NCBI GenBank assembly: GCA_027061995.1
Contig: JAMOUT010000099.1
Location: 1 to 20,800 of the forward strand
Source: Candidatus Aminicenantota bacterium
Lineage (GTDB): Bacteria; Acidobacteriota; Aminicenantia; JAMOAD01
DNA length: 20,800 nucleotides
Direction of reading: 5' to 3'
Numbering within the stretch: position 1 is the first letter of the stretch; the number at the start of each line of letters is the position of its first letter. A program made the position numbers and the translations under genes. Of the stretch, positions 2,572-17,483 are shown piece by piece. The notes beneath the pieces are model-generated. The model saw nothing but the letters and a program-made list of their open reading frames with translations. It did no database searches and had not been told where the DNA came from.

Positions 2572-3411
2572 CTAAATAAAAACTTCTCCTTTGAAAACAT
2601 GTGCTGAAACACCATTTAAAAATATTTTATCATCCTGACATTCTATAATAATATCTCCCGCTCTCGTAATCACTCTGACTTTTTCATCAACTAATCTTTT
2701 TAATCGTGCCGCAACAACGGATGCAGTGGAACCGCTTCCCGAAGATAAAGTTTCTCCCGCACCTCTTTCCCAGAATAATATTTCCATGGTTTGTTTATCA
2801 ATCACACGAACAAATTCAACATTTGTTTTATTAGGAAAAAAAGGGTGAGATTCTATCTCTTTCCCTATCTGCTGGAGTTCAAAAGATGACGGAAAATTAT
2901 CAAGGAAAATAACCGTATGCGGATTCCCGACAGAGAGAATACTTGCATTAAAAACCCTTCTATTAATATTCAAAGGATAATCTATTATTTTTTGATACTG
3001 AGTCCCGTCATAAAAGGGGATATCTTCGGAGGAAAATTTGGGTTCTCCCATATCAACCTTTAAATAATATCTGTTTTCCTCCTCTTTGATTAGTTTAACA
3101 ACTCTGTCTCCAGCTTTTGTATCAAAGACAACTTCATTACCGATTTCATCCTTATATTTATCAAAAACATAAGCACCCGCATTAATCAGTCCGTTTCCCG
3201 ATATCTCGGCTTCTGTGCCATCATTATTCCAAATCCTAAAATAAAATGATTTCTCCCCCTTTTTATCTAAAAAAAGAGCTCCGTCCGATCCGACACCAAA
3301 ATGTCTATTGCATATCTTTTCTGTTATCTCCTTTCTTTTTTTATTATCATTATCAAAATTTTCTATAATAATAAAATCATTTCCCGAAGCTTGAAATTTA
3401 TCTATTCTCAT
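2572..3411 (-). CDS. Diaminopimelate epimerase-like protein lacking both catalytic cysteines
   Basis: A 279-residue protein with the complete DapF two-lobe pattern: ASGNDF near the N-terminus, NNDGTEAE before the first active-site loop, VGNPHTVIF in the middle, and ERGAGET before the second loop. DapF proper epimerises LL- to meso-diaminopimelate for lysine and peptidoglycan using a cysteine pair as two acid/base residues. Here the first cysteine (C-GNG) is Ser71 (S-GNG) and the second (C-G-T/S-G) is Ser224 (S-GSG); the Arg usually found after GNG is also missing. Both are unambiguous TCG codons. ATG at 3411 is chosen because it overlaps the htrA stop as TGATG; an in-frame TTG one codon upstream is the less likely alternative. 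The gene is therefore translationally coupled to htrA. It may be a weak or altered epimerase, or a family member with another reaction, so no symbol is given. Confidence 0.8.
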   Translation of the reverse strand: MRIDKFQASGNDFIIIENFDNDNKKRKEITEKICNRHFGVGSDGALFLDKKGEKSFYFRIWNNDGTEAEISGNGLINAGAYVFDKYKDEIGNEVVFDTKAGDRVVKLIKEEENRYYLKVDMGEPKFSSEDIPFYDGTQYQKIIDYPLNINRRVFNASILSVGNPHTVIFLDNFPSSFELQQIGKEIESHPFFPNKTNVEFVRVIDKQTMEILFWERGAGETLSSGSGSTASVVAARLKRLVDEKVRVITRAGDIIIECQDDKIFLNGVSAHVFKGEVFI

Positions 3412-4883
3412 CAATCCAATCTTACACTCCTAATTATTTCATATATATTTCCCTGTCTATCGAATTGTCTTACTTTGAAAATAACGGCTCTTCTCCCTTT
3501 TTTCTTAGCATAAGAAATTAAACTCTTAAATTTTTCAACAGTATTAACCTTGACCCTATTAACTTCCACAATGATATCCCCTCTTTGAAAACCGGCATCA
3601 TCGGCAGGCGAAAACCTTTTAACATTCAGGACGAGCAAACCTCCGTGAACAGGGATACCATAATTATAAGCCACCCTTTTAGTTAAAGCCACCAATTTCA
3701 TACCCAAGTCATTATTCACGCTTGCTTTCTTAGTATCAGTGTCATTAATACTTTTTTTACCAAGTTTACCAACCTTAACTTTCTTTATGAGTCTCTTCCC
3801 GTTTCTAATAATTTCAAGAGTTAGTGTGTTTCCGGGCATAGTAGCACCCACAATAACCTTTAGCTCTGTTTCATTTTTAATCTCTTTACCATTTATCTTG
3901 ACAACAACATCATAAGGTTTAAGTCCCGCTTTATCAGCAGGTCCGCCGGGAACAACCTGAGATATTATCGCTCCTCTGACACTTTTAAGTCCGAGTGCAT
4001 CTTTATCTTCAGGGCTGATTCTTTGAACCATTACTCCAAGCCAACCTCTTATAACTTTTCCATGTAATTTTAATTCTCTGACAATAATTTTGACAAGATT
4101 AGAGGGAATGGAAAACCCTATCCCTACAAATCCTTGATTAGGTGTAATAATAACAGAATTTACACCTATAACCTCTCCGTTGAGATTTACAAGGGGACCA
4201 CCCGAGTTTCCTCTGTTAATTGCCGCATCGGTCTGTATATAATCCGCATAATCGGCTACACTCAGTTGTCTTCCTTTTGCGGAAATAATTCCCGCTGTAA
4301 CGGAAAATTCAGTTCCAAGCGGATTACCGATAGCCATAACCCATTGCCCGACCTGTAATTTTTGAGAATCCCCGAATTTTAAAAACAGGAAATTTTTCCC
4401 TTTAACTTTTAAAAGAGCCAAATCCGTTTTTTCATCCTTTCCTATAAGTTTGGCTCTGTAACTATTACCGTCATATGTAAAAATATCTATCTTTTTCGCA
4501 TCTTTGACAACATGATTATTTGTTACAATATATCCGTCACTGCTTATAAAAAAACCGGATCCGAGTCCCTGAACTTTTTCGGTTCTCGGAACACCGAAAA
4601 ATCTTTTCCAAAAATTATCACCAAAACCAAAATCATCACCAAATCCCATCGCTGGAGAACTGCTGATTTCCATAGTGGAAATAATTTTAACAACCGCAGG
4701 AGTAACATGCTTTGCCGTATTAACAAAACTCGGAGGTGTAGCTTTAGGAAAATTTGCCGCATATACAGGAGGTGGTCCGGAATTATCCGGTCTCGCAGGA
4801 TTATGCACTCCCGAGAAAAAATAAGCTCCAATCAAAAAACCCAGACTTACGGCGACAACAAAATAAAGAATCTTCCTCTTCAT
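3411..4883 (-). CDS. HtrA/DegP-family periplasmic serine protease with two PDZ domains
   Basis: A 490-residue protein that degrades or refolds damaged envelope proteins. Residues 1-25 form a positively charged start followed by a hydrophobic segment (signal peptide or signal anchor); a Pro/Asn-rich linker follows. The trypsin-like domain spans about 55-265 with His124 (TNNHVV), Asp154 (TDLALLKV) and Ser227 (RGNSGGPL) as the intact catalytic triad. PDZ1 lies at about 275-375, with a GLKPYDVVVKING core, and PDZ2 at about 390-475, with GFQRGDIIVEVN. Length and two-PDZ layout match DegP/DegQ/MucD rather than one-PDZ DegS. ATG at 4883 is supported by AAGGAGG upstream and a promoter candidate at 4907-4935. 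It overlaps the dapF-like gene by one base. I cannot tell DegP from DegQ or MucD orthology by eye. Confidence 0.93.
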   Translation of the reverse strand: MKRKILYFVVAVSLGFLIGAYFFSGVHNPARPDNSGPPPVYAANFPKATPPSFVNTAKHVTPAVVKIISTMEISSSPAMGFGDDFGFGDNFWKRFFGVPRTEKVQGLGSGFFISSDGYIVTNNHVVKDAKKIDIFTYDGNSYRAKLIGKDEKTDLALLKVKGKNFLFLKFGDSQKLQVGQWVMAIGNPLGTEFSVTAGIISAKGRQLSVADYADYIQTDAAINRGNSGGPLVNLNGEVIGVNSVIITPNQGFVGIGFSIPSNLVKIIVRELKLHGKVIRGWLGVMVQRISPEDKDALGLKSVRGAIISQVVPGGPADKAGLKPYDVVVKINGKEIKNETELKVIVGATMPGNTLTLEIIRNGKRLIKKVKVGKLGKKSINDTDTKKASVNNDLGMKLVALTKRVAYNYGIPVHGGLLVLNVKRFSPADDAGFQRGDIIVEVNRVKVNTVEKFKSLISYAKKKGRRAVIFKVRQFDRQGNIYEIIRSVRLD

Positions 4884-13157: not shown

Positions 13158-16100
13158 TTAAAAATTTATATTACTCTCTTCTTCTTCAGAAGGTAATTCA
13201 ACCTGAAATTTATTTATTCTGGTTTTCTTCCCCAATTCAACATTGATTGACAAACTCATAAGTTCTCTTATCAAAACATTGAATGATTCGGGAAGACTCG
13301 GAGTATAATCATAAGTTCCTTTGACAATTGATTCATATATTTTATTTCTACCTTCAACATCATCAGATTTAGCGGTAAGCATCTCTTGTAAAGTATAAGC
13401 CGCTCCATAAGCTTCAAGCGCCCATACTTCCATCTCTCCGAACCTCTGTCCTCCGAACTGTGCTTTACCTCCGAGAGGTTGTTGAGTAATTAATGAATAG
13501 GGACCTGTTGATCTTGCATGAGCTTTATCTTCTGCCATATGAACAAGTTTCATAACATACATAACACCGACAGTGGCTTTTTGATCAAACGGTTCTCCAG
13601 TTTTACCGTCATATATCTTAGTTTGCCCTGTCTCGGGAAGATTAGCCTGTCTTAACAAATCCCTAATCTCATTTTCCTTGGCTCCGTCAAATACGGGTGT
13701 TTCGACTTTCCATCCGAGAGCTTTTGCAGCCCATCCAAGGTGTGTTTCCAATATCTGTCCTACATTCATCCTCGAAGGAACACCAAGAGGATTAAGAACA
13801 ACATCAACAGGAGTTCCGTCTTCGAGAAACGGCATATCTTCAACAGGAAGTATCCTTGAAATACAACCTTTGTTTCCATGTCTTCCGGCAAGTTTATCGC
13901 CCTCCTGAATCTTTCTTTTCATAGAGATGAATACTTTTACGACTTTCAATATTCCGGGGGAAAGATCATCACCTTTTCTTATGGTATCTATCTTATCATT
14001 AAGTTCCATTTTAATGGATTCAATCTGAACTTTTATTTTCTGTCTTATATCATCAAGAAAAGCATCTTTTTCAGGATCCTTTTCAAATCTGACTTTAAAC
14101 AAATCCTCAAGCTCAAGTTTATCATATATTTTAGCTCTCAATTTATCTTTCTTTTTAAGAGTAAGATCCTCTTTTTTAAAATCCTTTGCTATTATTCTAC
14201 CGAGAGTTTCTTTTCTAAGGATTTTTTTTGCCTCTATATTCAGAATCTCAATCTCCTCTTTCATATTTTTTTTCAATCTCTCAATTTCCTGTTCCTCTAT
14301 CTGTTTTGCCCTTTCATCCTTATCAACTCCTCTTCTCGTATATATCTTAACATCAATAACAGTTCCTTCGACTCCCGGAGGACATCTTAATGAAGCATCC
14401 TTTATCTCAAGAGCTTTGTGCCCGAAAATGGCTTTAAGCAGTTTTTCTTCGGGAGTAAGTTGTGAAGGTGCCTTCGGTGATATCTTTCCGACCAATATAT
14501 CTCCGGGTTTTACAAAAGAGCCGATTTTAATAATCCCTGAATCATCAAGATTTCTCAGCTTTTCTTCTCTTCTTTCACCTTTAAGGGGGAGATCTTTTGT
14601 TATCTCTTCCTGACCGAATTTAGTCTCTCTCGCTTCCGTGGAGACCTCCTTAATATGGATAGAGGTTAAAGCATCATCCTCAACAAGCCTGTTTGAAATA
14701 AGAATAGCATCCTCATAATTATAACCTCTCCATGGCAAGAAAGCGACAACAAGATTTTTACCGAGAGCCAACTCCCCTTTGTCAGTGGTTGAACTATCGG
14801 CTATAACCTGTCCTCTCTGGACTTTGTCACCTTTCTTAACAATAGGTCTCTGATTAACAAGAGTATCCTGATTCGATCTCCTGAATTTTGATAAAACATA
14901 GAGGTCGGCTCCGATATCCTTACTTTCAAAATCCTCCTCTTCCTCATCAACTTTAATGATTATCCTGTTTGCATCAACCTTTTCCACAATACCGGGTCTT
15001 TTAGCCAAAACAACACCTTTTGAACCTTTTCCCGCTATATATTCAACCCCTGTTCCGACAACCGGAGAATCCGGTCTGACTAAGGGAACAGCCTGTCTCT
15101 GCATGTTTGAACCCATCAACGCCCTGTTAGCATCATCATGTTCAAGAAACGGAATCAATGAAGCTGAAATGGAAACCAATTCCTGAGGAGATACATCCAT
15201 GTATTCAACCTCATTTCTCGGCACATAGGTAAATTCACCCTCTTTTCTAACGGTAACTTTTTCATCTATGATTTTACCTTTTTCATCCAACTTTGTAGTA
15301 GCCTGAGAAATAATATGTCTTTCCTCCTCCCATGGAGTCAAATAAAACGGGTTATATGAATATACGGGCATCATTTTACCCGATTTTTTAAGTTTTTCTA
15401 TCTCTTTAAAAAGAACGGATTTTTCAATTATATCATTCGGTTTAAACTTACTGTCACCTGAAGCTATGATTTTATAAAAATCCTTAACAACACCGTTTTC
15501 AACCTTTCGATAAGGAGCCACAAGAAATCCGAATTCATTAATCCTTGCGAAGGTGCTCAAAGATACTATCAAACCTATATTCTGTCCCTCAGGTGTTTCA
15601 ATAGGGCAGATTCTTCCATAGTGCGATATATGGACATCTCTGACTTCAAATCCAGCTCTTTCCCTTTTCAATCCTCCGGGACCAAGAGCTGATATCCTTC
15701 TCTTGTGTGTAATCTCCGCAAGCGGATTCGTTTGATCAAGAAATTGAGATAATTCGGATGTTCCGAAAAACTCTTTTAATGATGCTGTTATAGGTTTTGA
15801 ATTTATAAGATCTTTGGGAAAAACGGATCTGAGTTCCTGAGTTGCAATTAATTTTTCCTTTACCATTTTTTCAAGTCTTTGTAATCCCGACCCGAATTGA
15901 TCGGTTACAAGTTCTCCCACAGGTCTGACTCTTCTGTTTCCGAGATGATCCCTGTCATCTTCAACTCCACCGTTTCCTTCCAATAACCTCAGATAATATT
16001 TAATCGTCTCGATTATATCTCTTTCCGAGAGTGTTGTTTTGTCAAGAGGCTCGTCAATACCGAGTTTCAGATTAATCTTATATCTTCCAACAGGTGAAAG

Positions 16101-17483
16101 ATCATATCTTTTAGGATTAAAGAACAAATTATGAAAATAGATTCTTGCTTGATCAGAGTGGAAAGGTTCTCCGGGTCTTAATTGCTTGAATATAAAATTA
16201 TATGCATCTTCCACCATTTTAATAGTATCTTTTCTCAGTGTATTGATAAGATAAGTTCCTATCTCATCCTTTTCGGGAAAAAATATTTCAAACTCTTCCC
16301 CTTTAACAGATAAAAAATCAAGCCCTATATCATCGATATAATCACCTATTTCAAGTTCAACTCCGGCTTTTTTAGCCACAAGAGCGGCGCCCTTTAAATC
16401 ATCTCTACTCAAAGCGATATATTCAATACCTATCTTCTTTAATTTTTTATAGAGTTCCTTATTAAGCTTGGCACCTTTCTTGGCTATAACCTCTTTTGTA
16501 TCAGGATCCACTATTTTCTGATCAATCGTTTTTTCCTCTTTTGCACTTTTTGTTAGCAGATGTTCGCTAAATTTCCAAAAATATTTTTCTCCCTGCTTCT
16601 TGACCTTGAAAGTTTTATAGAATTTTCTTACTATCTCACTATCATCTTCCAATTTTATCGCTCTTAAAAGTGTTGTAATGGGAATTTTCTTTTTCTCGTT
16701 AATTCTTGCAAAAAGAATATTCTTTTTATCAATAACAAATTCTAATTTTGCACCTCTGTGAGCCATAATCACCGCTTTTAAATCTTTCTTATACTGATCC
16801 TTTTTCTCCTTACTTTTCTTATCTCTGTGAAAAATAACTCCCGGAGCCTGATGAAGTTGATTAACTATAACTCTCTCGGTTCCATTAATAATAAAAGAAC
16901 CACTCTCCGTCATTATAGGGATTTCTCCGAAATATATATCTCCCTGTTCTTTGATTTCCCTATGTCCGGCACCTTCTTCTTCCTCTACAATCAATCTGAG
17001 TTTGACATAAAGCGGTATCGAATAAGTATATCCCTTATCAATACATTCTTCGGGGGAATGTGATAGTTTTAAACCAACCCTTGTTCCGCATTTGTCACAT
17101 GTGGGATATTCAAAATCACCTTTCTTTCCGCACGAAGGACAGACTGTCTCCTGCCCGGGAACGACATCCATGGGTAACGGATTTCCGCAATGTTTACAAA
17201 CCGGTCTGGCATTTTCAACACCGGTAAGTTTTCCGCATTTACAACTCCATTTCCCGAGATTATATTCAACGAATTCAAGAGATGCGGTTTCCTTGAAATT
17301 TTTAATAGGAAATATTTTTTCAAAAGCAGCTTGTATTCCGATTTTTTTCCTCTCGTGAGGAAGTTCCTTCATTTGAAGAAATTTATCATAACTTTCCTTC
17401 GGAAGTTTGATAAGGTCATCGACAGGAAGCAAAAAACTGGTTTTCCTAAAAGTTTTTCTTTCTAAATATGGATTTTTTTCCAT
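13158..17483 (-). CDS. rpoB: RNA polymerase beta subunit with N-terminal zinc-ribbon insertion
   Basis: A 1441-residue catalytic subunit. Standard landmarks are [10 protein letters not shown] (69-77), [16 protein letters not shown] (149-164), the rifampicin region [30 protein letters not shown] (575-604), [12 protein letters not shown] in the active-site region, and the C-terminal clamp segment [26 protein letters not shown]. Rifampicin-contacting positions are of the sensitive type: Asp583, His593 and Ser598, equivalent to E. coli 516, 526 and 531. Odd: between LGKW and SPEEC, residues about 79-140 form an insertion with Cys81, 83, 96, 99, 115, 118, 129 and 132, arranged as two zinc ribbons. 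Other bacterial beta subunits that I know have a short connection here. AGAGG precedes the ATG. An 81-bp AT-rich spacer separates it from rplL. Confidence 0.97.
   Translation of the reverse strand: [1441 protein letters not shown]
17088..17243 (-). other. Segment of rpoB encoding two tandem zinc ribbons
   Basis: It encodes residues 81-132 of beta. The first unit is C-x-C-x12-C-x2-C (Cys81/83/96/99) and the second C-x2-C-x10-C-x2-C (Cys115/118/129/132), each with glycine after the outer cysteine knuckles. Spacing and knuckle sequence (CKCGK, CKHCG, CPSCG, CDKCG) are those of zinc ribbons. The segment is in frame and flanked by normal beta sequence. Confidence 0.85.

Follow-up and report, generated by a model that had tools for sequence, protein, structure and literature searches.

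Accessory domains that are inserted in frame into the beta subunit of RNA polymerase, restricted to particular lineages and dispensable for catalysis, include the E. coli insertions i4, i9 and i11 and the BEAN domains. These and the other known beta insertions are described with non-zinc folds and at sites different from the one reported here, the E. coli and Thermus set named by Opalka and colleagues lying elsewhere (PMC2939025). Zinc ribbons are carried on multisubunit polymerases by archaeal subunit P, eukaryotic Rpb12 and other zinc subunits, and by the beta' subunit as its N-terminal zinc-binding domain (ZBD; ligands C70, C72, C85 and C88 in E. coli), and two consecutive four-cysteine (C4) ribbons occur in the Pfam family DZR (PF12773). 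The stretch of DNA analysed here in full (20,800 nucleotides of contig JAMOUT010000099.1 from a Candidatus Aminicenantota bacterium, hereafter the window) harbors an rpoB gene whose product contains an additional segment with two sets of four cysteines. All evidence considered, this segment is probably an Acidobacteriota-wide domain of two Cys4 ribbons placed in the beta protrusion, at the connection that corresponds to E. coli residues 77-83; its first ribbon is somewhat likelier than not to derive from beta', and a docking role is proposed more tentatively.

Anatomy of the inserted domain

Family models describe the window beta as an ordinary RpoB except for residues 78-141, with a score of 1624 bits against the RpoB equivalog model TIGR02013 (cut-off 801). 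Alignments (phmmer) to betas of solved structure end at E. coli residue 77 and restart at residue 83, within the E. coli segment 75-85, LGEPVFDVQEC (LGEP from 75, QEC from 83). A previous examination of the letters alone (the sequence-only reading) had reported an eight-cysteine insertion between LGKW and SPEEC in the N-terminal part of beta, and its residues, spacing and frame were all recovered as claimed: the insert is preceded by LGK(78)W and followed by SPEEC(147), the reading frame is unbroken and the flanks are normal. Eight cysteines fall within 53 residues, against four in the remaining 1388 (binomial chance ~4e-12).

Ribbon 1 has the ligand spacing C81-x-C83-x12-C96-x2-C99 and the consensus motif W-E-C-K-C-G-x-L-x-G-[LIV]-E-x-L-R-x2-C-x2-C-G, in which the conserved non-ligand positions are K82, L86, G88-[LIV]89-E90 and L92-R93. 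Both four-cysteine sets possess knuckle glycines and are conserved jointly, as in a double C4 zinc ribbon, and column conservation is far higher in the ligand sets than in the loops between them. The best named family covering the entire insert is DZR, which matches the isolated insert with 25.4 bits (E = 1.6e-5; gathering cut-off 27.3) and the whole protein with 18.2 bits, and the match to the Pfam family Zn_ribbon_3 is likewise slightly below its curated cut-off. Apart from this sub-threshold score, the insert differs from DZR in its C-x-C first knuckle and in being embedded in a polymerase subunit. The similarity to subunit P and Rpb12, which are separate small subunits, is weak in sequence and fold, is confined to the inter-ribbon part and gives no sign of common origin. 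Judged by these features, the insert is probably a zinc-binding double-ribbon domain in which each cysteine quartet is predicted to bind one structural zinc, ribbon 2 appearing to be of a generic kind.

Distribution within and beyond Acidobacteriota

The phylum was represented by an even set of 149 Acidobacteriota genomes, from which 76 full-length betas were extracted (63 families). In nearly all of the 149 genomes the matches spanned the insert without a break; all eight cysteines were kept in 67 of the 76 full-length betas, every one of these 67 having an insert of 63-64 residues, and the insert was intact at 18 of 20 further loci. A profile built from the insert matched 181 of 198 relatives, nearly always end to end, and 112 of the 113 good-quality genomes among them, a few of these matches covering only the flanks or a remnant, in genomes without the insert (e.g. 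family f10). Throughout Aminicenantia the matches were of exact length. The insert is an accessory domain present in nearly all sampled Acidobacteriota with constant spacing, and strong purifying selection maintains its two C4 sets. Because this spacing is conserved across the phylum, the insert is not a product of chance, assembly error or frameshift. The lineage-specificity proposed in the sequence-only reading is real, the lineage being the whole of a large phylum. A seemingly second, insert-less rpoB in genome G112 was rejected as one gene divided between two contigs, and an extra rpoB copy in genome G118 was set aside as it looks like contamination.

Evidence from outside the phylum came from 51 solved betas, 66 plasmid-borne rpoB genes and three outgroup betas, other phyla being thinly sampled. 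The insert was absent from all 51 betas with solved structures, in agreement with the earlier statement that it departs from well-studied betas, and was not found in the 66 plasmid-borne rpoB genes of other phyla; the viral contigs and phages searched for it yielded nothing, and a search of the PDB did not turn up an RNA polymerase structure bearing it. One of the plasmids, from a Bacillaceae strain (Pontibacillus, locus L125), carries its own rpoB-rpoC pair, an unusual plasmid-borne polymerase whose beta shares only ~36% identity with the query over this region.

The text of a 2024 survey of beta and beta' insertions makes no reference to zinc, ribbons, cysteines or the protrusion (PMC11515920). 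The BEAN sites described in that text do not include the present one, and the cysteines of the insert are ribbon-like. Opalka and colleagues cite beta i11 in Acidobacteriaceae, with no mention of this insert alongside it (PMC2939025). Zinc in this part of beta is not mentioned in the papers found by a literature search, whose coverage did not extend to the catalogue of Lane and Darst (2010). Since lineage-specific insertions of the core polymerase are already known and an entry in that catalogue is possible, the insert belongs to a known class and is not categorically new; the catalogued insertions are said to be numbered from i1, with E. coli i4 already at about residue 225, and one at this site may exist.

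Gain and loss of the insert

In a beta tree built without the insert columns, with E. coli, Methylobacterium and Agathobacter as outgroups, the Acidobacteriota grouped together against the three outgroups. The insert is present in the deepest branches, and the exceptions are nested within carriers, with support of 0.97-1.0 for f10, f36-g46 and f55, so its acquisition predates the split among the sampled members, and at least four losses or decays came afterwards. Families f10 (support 1.0) and f55 (0.974) are without the insert. In family f36, genus g46 reads 'GDWDWPFDEEEC' at the place of the insert, which is complete in its sister genus g60 (support 0.995), and the leftover W of this string is the first residue of the inserted domain, i.e. 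a scar. Within f55, locus L106 (genome G104) reads the canonical insert-less VGEPKYTIDEC yet nests among carriers (support 0.93-0.97), which could reflect precise loss, replacement by recombination, or an assembly or binning issue. The complete 7.5 Mb Acidobacteriota genome G125 (family f58, locus L109) retains a shortened, decayed remnant with the zinc ligands gone, which shows that the insert decayed here and was not cleanly deleted. Partial ligand loss was seen in f12 (L060, its relatives L127 and L128 not being affected), in f40 (L091 and L129) and in one f33 genome (L137). For the most part the cysteines of a set persist or disappear together, which is how metal ligands should behave. The insert is useful and not essential, and its repeated losses imply that it modulates transcription and is not required for catalysis.

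Similarity of ribbon 1 to the beta' zinc ribbon

When the insert profile was compared with all PDB sequences, the N-terminal zinc ribbon of beta' (gamma in cyanobacteria) was the sole match to the whole of ribbon 1 among the matches listed, and its alignment to ribbon 1, NWECKCGKLKGLENLRSKCKECG, was ungapped (E = 0.002). Six-frame searches of 14 whole genomes with the same profile returned the rpoC ribbon as the best non-rpoB match in most of them, with E values from 2e-5 to 5e-4 in 11 genomes and from 0.004 to 0.018 in three; that the usual best match outside rpoB is the beta' ribbon is the new observation here. The two ribbons have the identical ligand spacing C-x-C-x12-C-x2-C and share [WY]-E before the first cysteine, G-K/R after the second and G after the fourth, and in ribbon 1 this flanking signature together with the spacing goes beyond chance. 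Column permutation gave p = 2.5e-4 with the cysteines fixed and p = 0.002 with the cysteines and knuckle glycines fixed. The similarity thus tested appears real but concentrated in the first knuckle (W-E-C-x-C-G-K). Ribbon 1 differs from the beta' ZBD in being located on the beta protrusion, in being followed by a second ribbon and in lacking the basic RNA-contact loop (R77 replaced by G88, K79 by E90).

Charge, conserved face and putative function

Residues R77, L78 and K79 of the beta' ribbon grip HK022 putRNA (PMC9378689). At the equivalent positions the beta insert has an invariant glycine (G88, 67/67), a hydrophobic residue and mainly E90, and the basic RNA contact is not retained. The loop between the ligand pairs carries a charge of +5.6 in beta' and +1.9 in the beta insert, and the insert as a whole is weakly basic, with a mean net charge of +1.9 (range -5 to +9), conserved basic residues being K82 (54/69) and R93 (59/69). 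The sequence-only reading had proposed a contact with upstream DNA, RNA or a lineage-specific factor; because the insert lacks the basic loop of beta' and its mean net positive charge is small, the nucleic-acid part of this proposal is weakened, and the factor contact is now favoured, if weakly.

Mfd and CarD bind at the protrusion (PMC7864632, PMC4593161), which also contacts NusG (PMC8940904). Given the conserved face formed by K82, L86, G88-E90 and L92-R93 and the lost basic loop, a protein contact would be likelier than an RNA or DNA grip, and a zinc-stabilised protein-docking extension at the upstream face is favoured over a nucleic-acid clamp. More specifically, the domain may, quite tentatively, offer at the cleft's upstream face a rigid docking surface for a candidate protein factor or for some other portion of the polymerase.

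Docking of CarD as the main function was rejected, since CarD is missing in many insert-bearing genomes and present in insert-less ones. Insert carriers lacking CarD comprise all sampled members of f2, f3, f18, f19 and f21 and most of f15 and f30. CarD occurs in nearly all insert-less genomes but also in ~70% of all genomes, and the association is not significant. The distribution of CarD in the phylum is itself patchy, the families just named showing a single CarD/TRCF-RID match of Mfd size, in contrast with the plain 'Acidobacteria: yes' of a published table.

Genomic setting

The rpoB gene lies in a minus-strand cluster, rplK-rplA-rplJ-rplL-rpoB-rpoC, in which the order rplJ-rplL-rpoB-rpoC is the expected context of RpoB. 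The source genome is a 104-contig draft, probably a metagenome-assembled genome (MAG), with Candidatus Aminicenantes as its nearest named genomes. The IKE motif of the same protrusion domain is intact (Table 1); in E. coli beta this motif is the binding site for the Tudor domains of Mfd and CarD. Beyond rpoC and on the same strand, positions 3411-4883 encode, to judge from the sequence, an HtrA/DegP-like protease of 490 amino acids beside a dapF-like gene.

Table 1. Positions of rpoB, its inserted domain and related features in the window
Feature	Position	Strand	Basis
rpoB, RNA polymerase beta subunit, 1441 amino acids, with insertion in the protrusion (beta1) domain	13158..17483	-	open reading frame; NCBIfam TIGR02013; Pfam Rpb2 domains
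Inserted domain, residues 78-141, net +61 residues relative to E. coli between beta 77 and 83	17061..17252	-	alignment breaks against E. coli and other solved betas; occurrence through Acidobacteriota
Putative zinc ribbon 1, W79 to P104, ligands C81, C83, C96, C99	17172..17249	-	ligand conservation; likeness to beta' ZBD
Putative zinc ribbon 2, C115-x2-C118-x10-C129-x2-C132, generic double-zinc-ribbon type	17088..17141	-	sub-cut-off Pfam matches; column conservation
Motif I177-K178-E179 (IKE), same protrusion domain, intact	16947..16955	-	sequence; beta 117-119 by E. coli numbering
N-terminal zinc ribbon (ZBD) of beta' (rpoC), ligands C70, C72, C85, C88	12852..12938	-	whole-length match to ribbon 1 within the window genome

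Discussion

The course of events that we propose would begin with the insertion of two Cys4 zinc ribbons into the connection of the beta protrusion before the sampled Acidobacteriota diverged. Ribbon 1 would have been copied from the N-terminal zinc ribbon of beta', whose gene adjoins rpoB, and would then have lost the RNA-gripping basic loop of its source. Each cysteine quartet would hold one structural zinc, and the ribbons would provide a rigid docking surface at the place where NusG, Mfd and CarD contact the protrusion, with K82, L86, G88-[LIV]89-E90 and L92-R93 of ribbon 1 as the predicted contact face. The domain would modulate transcription and would have been dropped or decayed in several lineages. 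In its broadest form, a core enzyme of four zincs in which beta gained its partner's ribbon and a second one, and with them a protrusion surface, new to the enzyme, that docks factors or guides nucleic acid and that several lineages have since given up independently, this scenario is offered as plausible but tentative.

The draft state and probable MAG origin of the window genome might point to a degenerate gene or to an artefact of assembly or binning, but the same insert occurs in named Aminicenantes MAGs, in genomes of two contigs or one (e.g. G123 and G027), and at ~85 independent loci, which refutes this reading and leaves it a negligible chance. The origin of ribbon 1 is more finely balanced. 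The C-x-C-x12-C-x2-C spacing and W-E context common to ribbon 1 and beta', and the fact that no other zinc ribbon among the matches listed in the 14 genomes and the PDB spans ribbon 1, argue that it began as a copy of the beta' ribbon, which we hold to be somewhat the likelier course. Several observations weigh against the proposal as a whole. Once the cysteines, glycine, W, E and K are all fixed, the permutation p value for ribbon 1 and beta' is 0.11, so the beta' signal rides on the first knuckle; for this reason, and with DZR as the best named family across the insert, derivation of both ribbons from a generic double-zinc-ribbon protein, unrelated to beta' and with a convergent CxCG knuckle, has close to an even chance. 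Structure prediction, run on the window sequence and three loci, gave a 650-residue AlphaFold model that is unusable (predicted local distance difference test, pLDDT, 37) and a 95-residue model of middling quality (pLDDT 61, ribbons ~70-82), and Foldseek and VIA fold searches with these low-confidence models returned no match above noise. CarD is absent from about a quarter of the insert-bearing genomes, the insert being independent of it, and K82 and R93 could still touch nucleic acid.

The last point bears on a nucleic-acid clamp, in which open or elongating complexes would be stabilised by ribbons reaching toward the upstream duplex, the exiting RNA or the non-template strand. The RNA binding of the beta' ribbon that ribbon 1 resembles and the conservation of both basic residues speak for such a clamp, but the net charge is weak and falls to -5 in places, and the residues with which beta' grips RNA are replaced by the invariant glycine and by glutamate, which makes it unlikely. 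Nor is a purely structural role very probable, with the ribbons bracing the protrusion as a stabilising spacer that has no partner: loss in several lineages and ligand sets far better conserved than the loops between them would suit it, whereas the conserved L86, G88, E90, L92 and R93 suggest a specific, possibly intramolecular, interface, and the insert has been retained across a deep phylum. A zinc-stabilised docking extension with a beta'-like first ribbon is the reading that we carry forward.

Few soil bacteria are more abundant than Acidobacteriota, and the core transcription enzyme of the whole phylum carries a part that is unstudied. From a metal-binding domain on the upstream face throughout the phylum one would expect a factor or a promoter-complex behaviour peculiar to the lineage, as well as an extra zinc requirement of transcription, and the insert is predicted to serve as a clean phylum marker in rpoB. 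Its natural losses are ready-made test cases, and ribbon 1, if indeed derived from beta', would be a rare example of a domain passed from one core subunit to the other.
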